A stretch of 64,000 nucleotides of DNA from Tissierella sp. Yu-01. Its GTDB lineage: Bacteria > Bacillota > Clostridia > Tissierellales > Tissierellaceae. The DNA lies in NCBI RefSeq assembly GCF_029537395.1, contig NZ_CP120677.1:620001-684000 (forward strand). The letters run 5' to 3'. The notes beneath the pieces are model-generated. The model saw only the letters and a list, made by a program, of their open reading frames with translations, had not been told where the DNA came from and made no database searches. Shown here one piece after another: positions 11,960-18,978 of this stretch; the first letter of the stretch is position 1, and each line of letters opens with the position of its first letter. The position numbers were made by a program, and so were the translations under genes.

Positions 11960-11989
11960 TTGAAAAATGTAATGATATTAGGGTATAAT
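11960..11989 (+). promoter_or_regulatory. Probable promoter of the PHP-ATPase/PLD cassette
   Basis: TTGAAA (11960-11965), 18-base spacer and TATAAT (11984-11989), just after a terminator and 40 bases before the ATG at 12030. The cassette therefore appears to have its own promoter. Confidence 0.6.
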
Positions 11990-12029
11990 GTTTGAAATGG
12001 AAGGAAAATTTTTACAGGGGGGATTAATA

Positions 12030-14627
12030 ATGGGGGAAACGTTTAAAAACGGTAGCAAATGGATAAGGGCAGATTTCCATCTACACACAGATGAAGATAA
12101 AGAATTTAAATATTCAGGGGAAAAACAAAATTATATAAATGACTATGTAAGCAGGTTAAAGAGCGAGAATATAAGAATTGGTGCTATAACAAATCATAAT
12201 AAATTTAATAGATATGAGTTTAATAAACTAAGAAAGGAAACAAGAAACAACAATATTTTCCTTATTCCAGGAGTGGAACTATCAGTAGCAGATGGAGCTA
12301 ATGGCATCCATACTCTTATTATGTTTAATGAAGATGAATGGTTAGAAAATGGAGAAGATAGAATAAATCAATTTTTAGATAGTGTATTTTTAGGAATTGA
12401 TAATAGGGAGAATGAAAATGCTCGATGTAAATGTTCAATTATAGAGATTATAAAGATGCTTGAAGGTATGAATAAAGACTATTTTATAATCATGGCACAT
12501 ATAGAAGATAGATGTGGCTTCTTTGAAGAACTTAAAGGTGGTAGGATAAGTGAGATAACACAAGAAAAAATATTTATTGAAAACGTATTAGGGTTTCAAA
12601 AGTTAAGAACTTATGATAATATCACTAAACTTAGAGATTGGATGGGGTATGATATAGCTTTTGTAGAAGGCTCTGATCCAAAATCTATTGAACAAATTGG
12701 TAAAGGAAAACATTGTTACTTAAAAGTGGGTGACTATTCTTTTGACTCTGTAAAATTTGCACTTAAAGATATTCATAGTAGAGTTTCATGTAATTATATG
12801 CCTAATAATAAAACATCTATTAGATCAATAGCATTTGAGGGTGGAAAACTCGATGGAAAAGAGATTCACTTTGCTGAAAATCTTAATACTCTAATAGGGA
12901 TTAGAGGTAGTGGAAAATCTTCACTATTAGAACTTATTCGATATGGATTAAATATTAACTTTGGAAGTAACTCGACAGATATGGAATACAAAAAGAGCTT
13001 AATAAAAAATGCTATTACAAGTAGTGGAAAAATCATCGTAAATATTGTAGATAAGCATAATAAACACTATAAGGTAGAAAGAATTTTTGAACATGAGCCA
13101 CATATTTTAAATGATAGAGGCGAAGAGTTAGGAATATCTTTAGATACAATTATAAAAAATCCATTATATTTTGGACAAGGAGATTTATCACAGACTGAAA
13201 AATGTGAAGAAGCATTGCTTGATAAATTAATAGGAAATTCAAATAAGGAAGTTCTAAGAAATATTCAAAACAAGAAACTAGAGTTAATAGATAATATTAA
13301 TAAATTTATGAGATTAAAAGACATAGAAGAGGATATCAAAGAAAGCAAAACTATAATAAATAATTGTAATCATAATTTAGAGCTATTTAAGAAACATGGA
13401 GTAGAAAAGAAATTAAATGACCAAGTTATATATAATAATGATAAATTACATCTAGAAAATGTTATTACCGTTTTAAAGAAACACTATAAAGATATAAAAG
13501 GTAATATTGGGGAAAGAACAAGTGAAATTATGGAGTTGTTAAATTATTCATCTGAAATTAATAATGATATAATAAACGAGTTAAATAAAGCAATTAGTGA
13601 CTTTATTGGAGCTTTAAACAAAATATCTTGTCAAATTGAAGTTATAGAGAATTTAGTTGATAGAATTCCAGAAATTGAAGAAAGTTTTAATAATAAGTTG
13701 AAAAATGTGGAGGAAGATTTTGCAAGGGTAAAACGAGAAATAGATATACCTGAATTGGATATAAGTGATTTTATGAAATATAATAACAAACTAGAAACAG
13801 CCAATAAAGATATAGCTAGTCTTGAAAAGCAAAAAGATGAAAGAGATCGTTTGAAGATTTCAATAAAAAGTAATGTCCGAGAATTAAATAATTTATATTT
13901 AGAAGAATTCAAGATATATTCTAGAGAAATAGATAAAATAAATAATGAGCAGAATAAACTTCAAATAAGTATAGGTTTTAAAGATGATAAAGAAGAATTT
14001 TTAGAGCATGTTAAAGAAAATTTCAAAGGGAGTGGATTACGAGCAAGCAATTATTTAGATATATCTGAAAAGTATGCTGATTATTTGGAAATGTTCTTAG
14101 ATATTTATTTACAAGAAAATAAATTTAAAGAAATAATTTCTGATAACTACTATGGTAAAGTTGTAGAATTATTTGAATTAAACATTCAAAAATTAATTGA
14201 ATATAAAACTCCTAATAAAATTAGTATTAGCTATCATAATAAACCTTTAGCACAGCATTCAATAGGACAAAGAGCATCAGCATTAATCTTATTTGTGTTA
14301 ACTCAGAAAGAAAATGATTTAGTAATAATAGATCAGCCCGAGGATGATTTAGATAATCAAGTTATTTATAAAGAGTTGATAACAAATTTACAGCAAAAGA
14401 AAAATGATATTCAGTTTATCTTTGCTACACATAATGCTAATATACCAGTACTTGGAGATGCAGAACAGATAATAACCTGTTACTACAATGATAATGAAAT
14501 AAGTATAAAATCTGGAAGTATTGATAAAAGAGATATTCAACAAAGAGTTATAAAAATTATGGAGGGTGGAAGAGATGCATTTAATAGGAGAAATGAAATT
14601 TATAAGTTATGGAAATACAATTTATAA
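12030..14627 (+). CDS. PHP-domain / SMC-like ABC ATPase (TrlF-like)
   Basis: AGGGGGGATT directs the ATG at 12030 (865 aa). Residues 1 to about 260 form a PHP phosphoesterase domain: HLH (17-19), NHN (55-57), VELS with Glu83, MAHIED near 155 and a late VEGSDP give the metal ligands. An ABC/SMC-type ATPase follows: Walker A GIRGSGKS near 290, a long coiled coil (about 400-680), signature-like SIGQRAS near 743, Walker B LVIIDQPEDD near 765 and H-loop ATHN near 799. PHP domains hydrolyse phosphoesters, often nucleic acids. Proteins of this architecture (called TrlF-like in current annotation) are predicted in bacterial conflict systems. The next gene is a PLD nuclease. Substrate is unknown. Confidence 0.85.
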   Translation: MGETFKNGSKWIRADFHLHTDEDKEFKYSGEKQNYINDYVSRLKSENIRIGAITNHNKFNRYEFNKLRKETRNNNIFLIPGVELSVADGANGIHTLIMFNEDEWLENGEDRINQFLDSVFLGIDNRENENARCKCSIIEIIKMLEGMNKDYFIIMAHIEDRCGFFEELKGGRISEITQEKIFIENVLGFQKLRTYDNITKLRDWMGYDIAFVEGSDPKSIEQIGKGKHCYLKVGDYSFDSVKFALKDIHSRVSCNYMPNNKTSIRSIAFEGGKLDGKEIHFAENLNTLIGIRGSGKSSLLELIRYGLNINFGSNSTDMEYKKSLIKNAITSSGKIIVNIVDKHNKHYKVERIFEHEPHILNDRGEELGISLDTIIKNPLYFGQGDLSQTEKCEEALLDKLIGNSNKEVLRNIQNKKLELIDNINKFMRLKDIEEDIKESKTIINNCNHNLELFKKHGVEKKLNDQVIYNNDKLHLENVITVLKKHYKDIKGNIGERTSEIMELLNYSSEINNDIINELNKAISDFIGALNKISCQIEVIENLVDRIPEIEESFNNKLKNVEEDFARVKREIDIPELDISDFMKYNNKLETANKDIASLEKQKDERDRLKISIKSNVRELNNLYLEEFKIYSREIDKINNEQNKLQISIGFKDDKEEFLEHVKENFKGSGLRASNYLDISEKYADYLEMFLDIYLQENKFKEIISDNYYGKVVELFELNIQKLIEYKTPNKISISYHNKPLAQHSIGQRASALILFVLTQKENDLVIIDQPEDDLDNQVIYKELITNLQQKKNDIQFIFATHNANIPVLGDAEQIITCYYNDNEISIKSGSIDKRDIQQRVIKIMEGGRDAFNRRNEIYKLWKYNL

Positions 14628-14697
14628 TAGAATAGAAAATTAGAGCAATAGGTTAGGCTTTAATTATCTTATTCTTGATAGTATAGGGAGGAAAAAG

Positions 14698-15546
14698 ATG
14701 TACAAAGAAATTGATATTGGAAATGATAATAGTTTAATTTTATTTTATAGAGAAAATTTTTGGGACAAGTTAATTCCAACATATTTTAATAACTCTAGAA
14801 ATATTGATGTTATAACATATAACTTTAATTTTTCACACAAAGAAGAAAAAAGTTTTTATAATAAATTAAAGGAGTTAGCAGATAAAGGAGTAGAAATAAG
14901 ATTGTTATATTCAAAAATGACTTATTCGAAAACTGAAGAACTTGAGATAGAAGAAATATTTAAAGGATTTGTTTTATGTGCAGAATTACCCGAAAATCAT
15001 GCAAAAATATTTGTATCAGACAATGTTGCATTTATGGGTTCAGCAAATTTTAGTTTAGGTAGTAACAACAATTATGAATCTGGAATTCTCATTAGAGATA
15101 CAAACATTATAAAAAAGATACGAAGGGAATTTGTAGGAGAGTTACTTGAAATGAGTGAATTTAAAAATGTTCCTGAAAGATGGGATGATCCGTTTCATCA
15201 TATTTTAGGGCTAAAAAACTGTATAGATGCCATCTATTGTTTAATGGATAATAAAGAAAATTTTTATATAGATAAAAATAGGGAATTAATTCCACAGTTG
15301 AGGGCTTGGAGTTATATAGAAAAAATAGCATTAAAACTAGGAATAACATTTAGACATCATTTTGATTGGGAAGAATTTTATTATAAAATATATGACAATT
15401 GTTATATTGAAGAGCAGGATTACTATTTATTTAAAGATTATATAATAAAATTTAGAGATGTTATAGAAAATTTAGCAGATTATTTCGTAGAATCATATGA
15501 AGAAAAGGGTAGATTAACTACTTTAAATGAATTAAATATTAAATAA
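14698..15546 (+). CDS. Phospholipase-D-fold nuclease-like protein
   Basis: ATG follows GGGAGGAAAAAG. One HKD motif is clear: NHAKIFVSDN (His100, Lys102) followed by GSANFS (about 113-118), as in single-motif PLD nucleases such as Nuc/BfiI that act as dimers. The N-terminal part has the DVITYNFNF strand and basic VEIRLLYSK usual before the motif. The C-terminal 120 residues, helical and aromatic, are not recognised. It lies 70 bases behind the PHP-ATPase gene and is followed by a terminator, so the two form a cassette; a role as its nuclease effector is inferred. Confidence 0.75.
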   Translation: MYKEIDIGNDNSLILFYRENFWDKLIPTYFNNSRNIDVITYNFNFSHKEEKSFYNKLKELADKGVEIRLLYSKMTYSKTEELEIEEIFKGFVLCAELPENHAKIFVSDNVAFMGSANFSLGSNNNYESGILIRDTNIIKKIRREFVGELLEMSEFKNVPERWDDPFHHILGLKNCIDAIYCLMDNKENFYIDKNRELIPQLRAWSYIEKIALKLGITFRHHFDWEEFYYKIYDNCYIEEQDYYLFKDYIIKFRDVIENLADYFVESYEEKGRLTTLNELNIK

Positions 15547-15618: not shown

Positions 15619-16518
15619 TTATAAACCAACTGGAAACTTTTCTACTTGTTTTCTCAAGTGATTTACATTGGTATGTGTATAGATTTTAGTAGAATTTAAA
15701 TCTTCATGGCCCAGTAATTCTTTAATAGATATTATATCTACACCATTCTGATATAATAAAGAAGCAAAACTATGTCTGCATTTATGGATTGTATAACCTT
15801 TATTACCTAAACCCGATTTTTCTAAATATCGTCTAAATAAACTTTGAAAATTACCTACACTCATTCTATTACCCCTATCAGAAGTTATAATAGCGTGATT
15901 TGTTAATGGAAGTCTAGTTTGTAAATATTCCCAAAGGTCAGTAGCCAGTGGTTCAATTAAAGGAATTATTCTTTGTTTATTACCTTTTCCTTTTAATATT
16001 GTTATAGTTTTTTTACCGAAATCTACATCATCAAAATTTAATGCCAATACTTCAGATCTTCTTGCTCCTGTAAAAACTAATAATTGAATCATTACTTTAT
16101 CTCTTAGACGGTGTTCTGGAAATCTAGCATATTTTTCTGGTGCTTCTAATAGTCTTTTTAATTCATTTTCCTTAATATAGATAGGAATTCTTTGTTCTTT
16201 CTTAGGTGCTTTAATAGGTGCCATTGGATTTTTATCTATATATTCTGTTTCGTATAAAAAGTTAAAGAATGATGAAAGTGAATTAATCTTACGTCTCACA
16301 GTTTCGTTAGCATACTTCTTATGCTTTTTCAAAAATGATACATAACTTCTCAATACTTGTGTTGTAATAGTATCAACCCTAGGTTCAATACCAACAATGT
16401 CTAAAAAATCACTAAAAACCTTATAGTCAGTAATATAACTAGTTATTGTTGCTTTAGAAGCATTCTTTTCTGCTTCCATATAATCTAAAAAATCATCATA
16501 ACAATTTTTTAAGATCAT
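15619..16518 (-). CDS. Tyrosine recombinase (integrase) of the element
   Basis: GAGGAGGG precedes the ATG at 16518 (299 aa); a GTG at 16548 overlaps the ribosome site. An N-terminal SAM-like core-binding domain (about 5-90) is followed by the catalytic domain with TGARRSEV (Arg I), GKGNKQR (Lys), HKCRHSFAS (His-x-x-Arg) and LLGHEDLNSTKIYTH (His and the nucleophilic Tyr). Size and motifs match XerC/D-like phage and ICE integrases without the N-terminal arm-binding domain. It reads away from the attachment site about 250 bases to its right. Confidence 0.95.
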   Translation of the reverse strand: MILKNCYDDFLDYMEAEKNASKATITSYITDYKVFSDFLDIVGIEPRVDTITTQVLRSYVSFLKKHKKYANETVRRKINSLSSFFNFLYETEYIDKNPMAPIKAPKKEQRIPIYIKENELKRLLEAPEKYARFPEHRLRDKVMIQLLVFTGARRSEVLALNFDDVDFGKKTITILKGKGNKQRIIPLIEPLATDLWEYLQTRLPLTNHAIITSDRGNRMSVGNFQSLFRRYLEKSGLGNKGYTIHKCRHSFASLLYQNGVDIISIKELLGHEDLNSTKIYTHTNVNHLRKQVEKFPVGL

Positions 16519-16611
16519 ACAAAATCCCTCCTCATTTTTAGGAGCCACTAAAACCTTAAAGTCTAAAATGTTATCAACTAAACAATATAGAATATTTTTC
16601 AGACTGTATTT

Positions 16612-18062: not shown

Positions 18063-18908
18063 ATGGCTGATATATTAAAAGGAAGTGTAGTAGCAGCAAA
18101 GATTAAGGATGATATGAGAAATAATATCAATACTTTAGGTAGTGCTGGAAAGTATCCAACTTTAGGAATAGTAAGACTTGGTAACAATCCTAGTGATGTA
18201 TCATACGAAAAAAGTATTATTAAGAATTGTGATGCCATAGGTATCAAATCAGAAATCTTTGAAAAAGACATCAATATGACTACAGAAGAATTAGCAAATT
18301 TCATTAATGAGTTAAATAATAATGATAATATATCCGGTATTCTGTTATTTAGACCCCTTCCAAAACAAATAGACGAAGAAAGAATAAGAAACACAATTTT
18401 ACCTTCTAAAGATGTTGATTGTATGCACCCATTAAATTTAGAAAAGATATTTGAAGGGGATATGAGTGGATTTTTACCAGCAACACCAAAGGCAGCAATG
18501 GAAATATTATTGCAAAATAATAATGAATTAGAGGGTAAAAATGTTGTCGTCATAAATAGATCCATGGTTGTAGGTAAGCCTTTAGCAATGATGCTGTTAG
18601 AAAAAAATGCAACGGTAACAATATGTCATTCGAGAACTAAGAATCTAAATGAGATTACTAAAAATGCTGATATCGTTATAACTGCATTAGGTAAACCTAA
18701 GTTTTTTACAAAAGATTATTTTTCTGAAGATTCTATCGTAATAGATGTAGGTGTTAGTATGACAGATGAAGGAAAACTTAGTGGTGATGTAGACTATGAA
18801 GATGTAGTGGATTACGTTGATAAAATTACTCCAGTTCCGGGAGGAGTGGGGAGTGTAACGACTACACTATTATTGAACCAAGTTGTCAATGCATGTATGA
18901 AAAATTAA
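18063..18908 (+). CDS. folD: FolD-type methylene-THF dehydrogenase, catalytic residues altered
   Basis: Length (281 aa) and motifs such as KDVDCMHPLN, VVGKP and TPVPGGVGSVTT identify FolD, which oxidises 5,10-methylene-THF and normally also hydrolyses methenyl-THF. However, the tyrosine-to-lysine catalytic motif (Y-x-x-x-K) reads SYEKSI, with Ile at the lysine position, and the GILVQLPLP motif reads GILLFRPLP, replacing the catalytic Gln by Phe. The nucleotide-binding GRS motif is NRS. From enzyme work on FolD, loss of the lysine abolishes the cyclohydrolase but can leave the dehydrogenase. A monofunctional dehydrogenase with a separate cyclohydrolase (FchA) elsewhere is inferred. Confidence 0.88.
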   Translation: MADILKGSVVAAKIKDDMRNNINTLGSAGKYPTLGIVRLGNNPSDVSYEKSIIKNCDAIGIKSEIFEKDINMTTEELANFINELNNNDNISGILLFRPLPKQIDEERIRNTILPSKDVDCMHPLNLEKIFEGDMSGFLPATPKAAMEILLQNNNELEGKNVVVINRSMVVGKPLAMMLLEKNATVTICHSRTKNLNEITKNADIVITALGKPKFFTKDYFSEDSIVIDVGVSMTDEGKLSGDVDYEDVVDYVDKITPVPGGVGSVTTTLLLNQVVNACMKN

Positions 18909-18920
18909 AATTATTACTAA

Positions 18921-18946
18921 AAGGGTCTTTTTATAGACTCTTTTTT
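18921..18946 (+). terminator. Rho-independent terminator
   Basis: AAGGGTCT (18921-18928) pairs with AGACTCTT (18935-18942), then T residues. It ends folD. Confidence 0.75.
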
Positions 18947-18978
18947 ACTTTTTAAAACAAAAATAGTCATAATTCTTT

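Follow-up and report, generated by a model that had tools for sequence, protein, structure and literature searches.

Monofunctional methylene-tetrahydrofolate (methylene-THF) dehydrogenases are an already known kind of enzyme. Yeast Mtd1 (PDB 1edz), a monofunctional NAD-dependent dehydrogenase, belongs to the same fold family as the bifunctional dehydrogenase/cyclohydrolase FolD, and its equivalents of the FolD active-site lysine and glutamine are presumably replaced as well. Within the clostridia, Aluri et al. are said to have reported in 2016 that FolD, FchA and Fhs are separate in a single organism, Clostridium perfringens. An E. coli K54S FolD, reportedly described by Sah and Varshney in 2015, is without cyclohydrolase and its dehydrogenase is still high.

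The cyclohydrolase step of bifunctional FolD relies on a lysine which acts as general acid/base and is positioned by a glutamine (PMC3338484), and in the human enzyme Ser49, Lys56 and Gln100 are named as cyclohydrolase-site residues (PMC6443876). Cyclohydrolase activity is undetectable in E. coli K54N, which retains ~19% of the dehydrogenase activity, in agreement with a first-pass annotation of the DNA studied here which held the lysine to be essential for this activity; Q98H retains ~1% of the cyclohydrolase and ~8% of the dehydrogenase activity (PMC5688156). Survival of K54N E. coli was attributed to spontaneous hydrolysis (PMC5688156). The dehydrogenases of Acetobacterium woodii and Clostridium formicoaceticum have been reported to be monofunctional (PMC9124964), and in A. 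woodii the folD gene lies in a cluster with fchA and fhs1 (PMC10472528).

Here we describe a folD-like gene from Tissierella sp. Yu-01, located in a 64,000-nucleotide stretch of DNA which was analysed as a whole and is called the window below. Its product resembles bifunctional FolD (E. coli; Campylobacter jejuni 3p2o) in its two Pfam domains, its fold, the equivalents of Tyr50 and Asp121 and the Rossmann loop, and differs from it in three replacements: Lys54 by Ile, Gln98 by Phe and a conserved Ser by Asp. Compared by description, it is like the acetogen enzymes (A. woodii Awo_c09280 and that of C. formicoaceticum) in being a FolD-family dehydrogenase with FchA and Fhs as separate proteins (PMC9124964, PMC10472528). 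Unlike A. woodii, the genome has no match to MetF or acetyl-CoA synthase and its folD is unlinked to fchA. Judging from sequence comparison, we consider it likely, with a probability of about 0.86, that the gene encodes a FolD-fold methylene-THF dehydrogenase without the cyclohydrolase half-reaction and that separate FchA and Fhs proteins complete the route.

The altered active site

The coordinates of the gene and of the relevant codons are collected in Table 1. In the alignment the Y-x-x-x-K motif reads Tyr48-E-K-S-Ile52. The first-pass annotation had noted Ile for the Lys of this motif, Phe for the Gln of QLPLP and NRS for GRS, and all three readings hold: a multiple alignment including solved FolDs places Ile52 at the position of E. 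coli K54, Phe96 at that of Q98 and Asn165-Arg-Ser at the GRS/GAS loop. A further change, absent from that annotation, is the replacement by Asp45 of the Ser lining the cyclohydrolase site. The complete Rossmann loop reads NRSMVVGKP. The NRS triplet is a variant found in this lineage, Asn being typical of Tissierellales FolD, and has no catalytic meaning alone; with GAS in E. coli FolD itself and Asn in much of the lineage, we rejected it as a sign of lost cofactor binding.

Table 1. Features of the folD-like gene (positions in the window)
Feature	Position	Strand	Basis
folD-like gene, predicted monofunctional 5,10-methylene-THF dehydrogenase	18063..18908	+	PF00763 103 bits, PF02882 197 bits
Asp45 codon, position of human Ser49 (cyclohydrolase-site Ser)	18195..18197	+	Ser in 87/87 canonical, Asp in 50/50 FRPLP-clade FolDs
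Tyr48 codon (E. coli Y50), kept	18204..18206	+	invariant in alignment
Ile52 codon, position of catalytic Lys (E. coli K54, human K56)	18216..18218	+	alignment
Phe96-Arg97 codons, position of Gln-Leu in QLPLP (E. coli Q98)	18348..18353	+	alignment
Asp119 codon (E. coli D121, folate-binding Asp), kept	18417..18419	+	invariant in alignment
NRS165-167, nucleotide-binding loop (usual GRS; E. coli GAS)	18555..18563	+	alignment
Probable intrinsic terminator after folD (GGGTCT...AGACTC, then T run)	18919..18950, approximate	+	read from sequence

The annotation had also raised the possibility that another lysine occupies the active site, and the alignment shows no in-register compensating Lys. Lys50 lies in the same helix, two residues before the Lys position, and relatives have K, R, G, N, V or Q there. 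An alignment error or shifted lysine was rejected because Lys50 does not align with the catalytic Lys and varies among relatives, and a sequencing error or chance because the absence of the lysine is common to the entire family. Indeed the lysine is missing from 27 of 27 other sampled genomes of the same family and from most of the order.

To describe the site as a whole, 50 sequences of the clade carrying the FRPLP motif were compared with 87 canonical FolDs, which have Ser, Lys and Gln without exception (100% each). In the FRPLP clade Asp replaces Ser at position 45, Phe replaces Gln at 96 and Arg replaces Leu at 97, each in 100% of the sequences; the clade was chosen by its FRP motif, so that fixation of Phe96 and Arg97 results in part from the selection of the set, which does not apply to Asp45 or Glu49. 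Position 52 is occupied by Ile, Ala or Val in 96%, and Glu stands in place of Val49, also in 96%. At the level of sequence this is a coordinated change of the old cyclohydrolase site. The Lys-less state is clade-wide in the Tissierellales and beyond and is old and widespread in Clostridia, hence less surprising than the first-pass annotation supposed. It is conceivable, if rather unlikely, that Asp45, Glu49 and Arg97 form a rebuilt network in support of a monofunctional dehydrogenase, or one that adapts it to a single cofactor or holds FchA in a docked position; with FchA docked, methenyl-THF would be handed straight from FolD to FchA.

A probable separate cyclohydrolase and Fhs in the genome

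A separate cyclohydrolase had been expected elsewhere in the genome, together with a suggestion to look for fchA and fhs, and both an FchA-like gene and fhs were found: the genome encodes two FTCD_C proteins and one Fhs. The FchA-like FTCD_C gene (L005 8329-8967, minus strand; G000:C1 ~2.198 Mb) adjoins an adenine deaminase gene. Its product matches PF04961 with 229 bits (cut-off 24.5) and its sole NCBIfam match is to FchA (NF045657), with 210 bits, below the equivalog cut-off of 275. The second FTCD_C gene lies in an ftcD/hutD cluster, after a glutamate formimidoyltransferase gene and before a hutD-like gene, and presumably encodes a histidine-pathway (hut-type) cyclodeaminase. Linkage between folD and fchA is absent in this genome, where at least 1.3 Mb of the replicon separates the two genes, and is present in relatives (e.g. 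G034, G041, G043, G050).

A profile search of the genome gave no match for MetF (PF02219) or acetyl-CoA synthase (PF03598). A role in the Wood-Ljungdahl pathway was therefore rejected for this genome and the gene is placed in ordinary C1 metabolism rather than acetogenesis. The methylene-THF reductase profile PF02219, without a match in G000, found one in 11 of 14 control genomes.

Co-occurrence and linkage across the phylum

An even sample of the phylum comprised 149 genomes, 147 of them with FolD. Active-site residues were read in 223 FolD sequences, including the set of relatives and leaving out a small number of additional copies in G061, G076, G078, G133 and G199, and FTCD_C was scored in the same genomes. 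FTCD_C occurs in 30/30 genomes with only Lys-less FolD and in 27/27 with a FolD which keeps Lys and has Glu for Gln, compared to 25/79 genomes with canonical FolD only (Fisher p 5e-12 and 4e-11, respectively), although these genome-level p-values overstate the case because there are only ~4-7 switches and the genomes share ancestry. On a FastTree phylogeny calculated with the motif columns excluded, the Lys state changes at least 7 times and the intact-versus-altered state at least 4 times; with so few switches, an independent-pairs test on the tree had too few pairs. Ten genomes carry Lys-less and canonical-motif FolDs together and FTCD_C is absent in 6 of these, which would follow if the cyclohydrolase were provided by the paralogue that has Lys.

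FTCD_C lies within 500 bp of folD for 28/97 Lys-less and 20/27 Glu-type genes and for 0/98 canonical ones. This contrast in adjacency and the repeated origin of the state still point the same way, towards a link between Lys-less FolD and the FchA family. In the order-level set FTCD_C is found in 49 of 52 Lys-less genomes. The three exceptions are a genome only 55% complete and two 96% complete drafts (G010, G028); two other members of the genus of G010 do have FTCD_C.

Several other FolD arrangements were encountered. The Glu-type class (27 genomes; e.g. L160, L165, L181, L188, L226) retains Lys, carries VELPLP, mostly together with GRGETVGKP, and probably represents another way of becoming monofunctional. 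In other families there are pairs of FolD paralogues, often in tandem, with complementary motif losses (L186, L187, L193, L194, L203, L206, L233, L235/L253, L236/L254, L238/L252; genomes G190, G084, G124, G112, G179, G160, G152, G074, G181, G115). One member of the pair keeps Lys and Gln, but its nucleotide site is degraded (GDSFDLIIP or GWSIEIGKP) and HSRT is absent; its partner has lost Lys (Gln or Ile instead), has Glu for the folate Asp and keeps the loop. From their sequences these look like a division of FolD between two subunits, one for the cyclohydrolase and one for the dehydrogenase. Finally, a 97% complete draft of the order (G046) gave no FolD match and has two FTCD_C genes, and the complete genome G078 has three equal-scoring FolD copies (C1 1271563, 1644846 and 1686623).

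These distributions bear on whether FolD might still be bifunctional, with Lys50, Asp45, Glu49 or Arg97 activating water in a different cyclohydrolase mechanism. The fixation of Asp45, Glu49 and Arg97 as new charged residues in or close to the old site is not what one would expect of simple decay and is in keeping with such a mechanism, but Lys50 is not conserved among relatives, the Lys-less state is accompanied by an FchA-family gene in nearly every genome, often in its cluster, and replacement of the lysine in E. coli K54N left cyclohydrolase undetectable (PMC5688156); we regard it as very improbable. Just as little weight can be given to a monofunctional FolD with no dedicated partner, in which methenyl-THF would open spontaneously, Fhs would give 10-formyl-THF and FTCD_C would serve histidine or purine breakdown. 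The genome does encode Fhs, one of its FTCD_C genes is in the ftcD/hutD cluster and the other beside adenine deaminase, G010 and G028 are without FTCD_C, and K54N E. coli survives, as was attributed to spontaneous hydrolysis (PMC5688156). Against this stand the 30/30 co-occurrence of FTCD_C across the phylum and its frequent position directly beside folD, which it has in no case with a canonical folD.

Conservation of folD and its surroundings

The gene is a complete ORF of 281 aa with an ATG start and a GGAGG ribosome-binding site close upstream. Both FolD Pfam domains and the FolD fold are present. The protein aligns over its full length with solved FolDs, with C. jejuni 3p2o at the top (42% identity), and yeast Mtd1 is distant from it (E 5.8e-11 in the PDB search). 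Its AlphaFold2 model has a mean pLDDT of 94.3 and a TM-score of 0.96 to C. jejuni FolD, so that the predicted structure is a confident FolD fold. Its nearest named relatives are from Tissierella and other Tissierellia. The NCBIfam FolD models which match it have 'bifunctional' in their names, and among the best 25 of 30 models it reaches no equivalog cut-off, the best score being 279.8 bits compared to a cut-off of 392.

Against four relatives folD has a dN/dS of 0.05-0.12, with synonymous sites partly saturated, which indicates purifying selection and makes a pseudogene unlikely. The complete 2.95 Mb genome was searched for a second, canonical FolD and none was found, leaving a single copy. 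In 8 of 9 relatives checked folD is directly upstream of spoIIAA-spoIIAB-sigF-spoVA; given the probable terminator 3' of the gene (Table 1), it is probably separate from the spoIIA operon. That folD has no dehydrogenase function and is a copy in decay or put to some other use, as might be argued from the alteration of several otherwise invariant positions and from the cost of Q98H, which takes most of the dehydrogenase activity in E. coli (PMC5688156), has a negligible probability for the sole FolD of a genome, with this dN/dS, a conserved place beside spoIIA, an intact folate Asp and Rossmann loop and a confidently predicted fold.

Elsewhere in the window (11988-15546), a gene for a TrlF-family PHP/AAA-like ATPase (504 bits, above cut-off) is followed by one for a PLD-like nuclease distantly like DrmC, a possible two-gene defence module; a XerC/D-like recombinase gene (15619-16548, minus strand) adjoins this pair.

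Discussion

We favour a monofunctional dehydrogenase, as the first-pass annotation had proposed; this is well supported in comparative terms, by the presence of an FchA-like gene, by co-occurrence and adjacency across the phylum and by the published mutants. Its starting point is what is directly observed: the active-site substitutions are fixed throughout the clade, the gene is under purifying selection, and FolDs of this kind share their genomes, and often their gene neighbourhoods, with FchA-family genes. In the mechanism we propose, Tyr48, Asp119 and an intact Rossmann domain would preserve folate and NAD(P) binding and hydride transfer, and Asp45, Ile52 and Phe96-Arg97 would have replaced the Ser-Lys-Gln group which opens methenyl-THF. 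A separate FchA would then interconvert 5,10-methenyl-THF and 10-formyl-THF, and Fhs would connect 10-formyl-THF with formate. Both activities of the protein, the identity of FchA as its partner and the choice of cofactor are what we infer from these comparisons. Since E. coli Q98H has just ~8% of the dehydrogenase activity, loss of the Gln would need compensation, perhaps by Phe96, Arg97 or Asp45. Counted against this reading are the FchA-like score (210 bits, below 275), the lack of a link to folD and the lack of FTCD_C in G010 and G028.

In the literature searched we found no earlier description of the residue signature, its spread in the phylum or its tight link with the FchA family. The 'bifunctional' names of the matching NCBIfam FolD models are probably wrong for most of the Tissierellales, and also for a large clade within the phylum. 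The three-residue signature of Ser, Lys and Gln predicts from the sequence whether a separate FchA is to be expected, a prediction which is relevant to the metabolic modelling of acetogens and of bacteria that ferment amino acids. With this signature a structural question also becomes testable, namely how the Lys-Gln pair can be replaced with hydride transfer retained.
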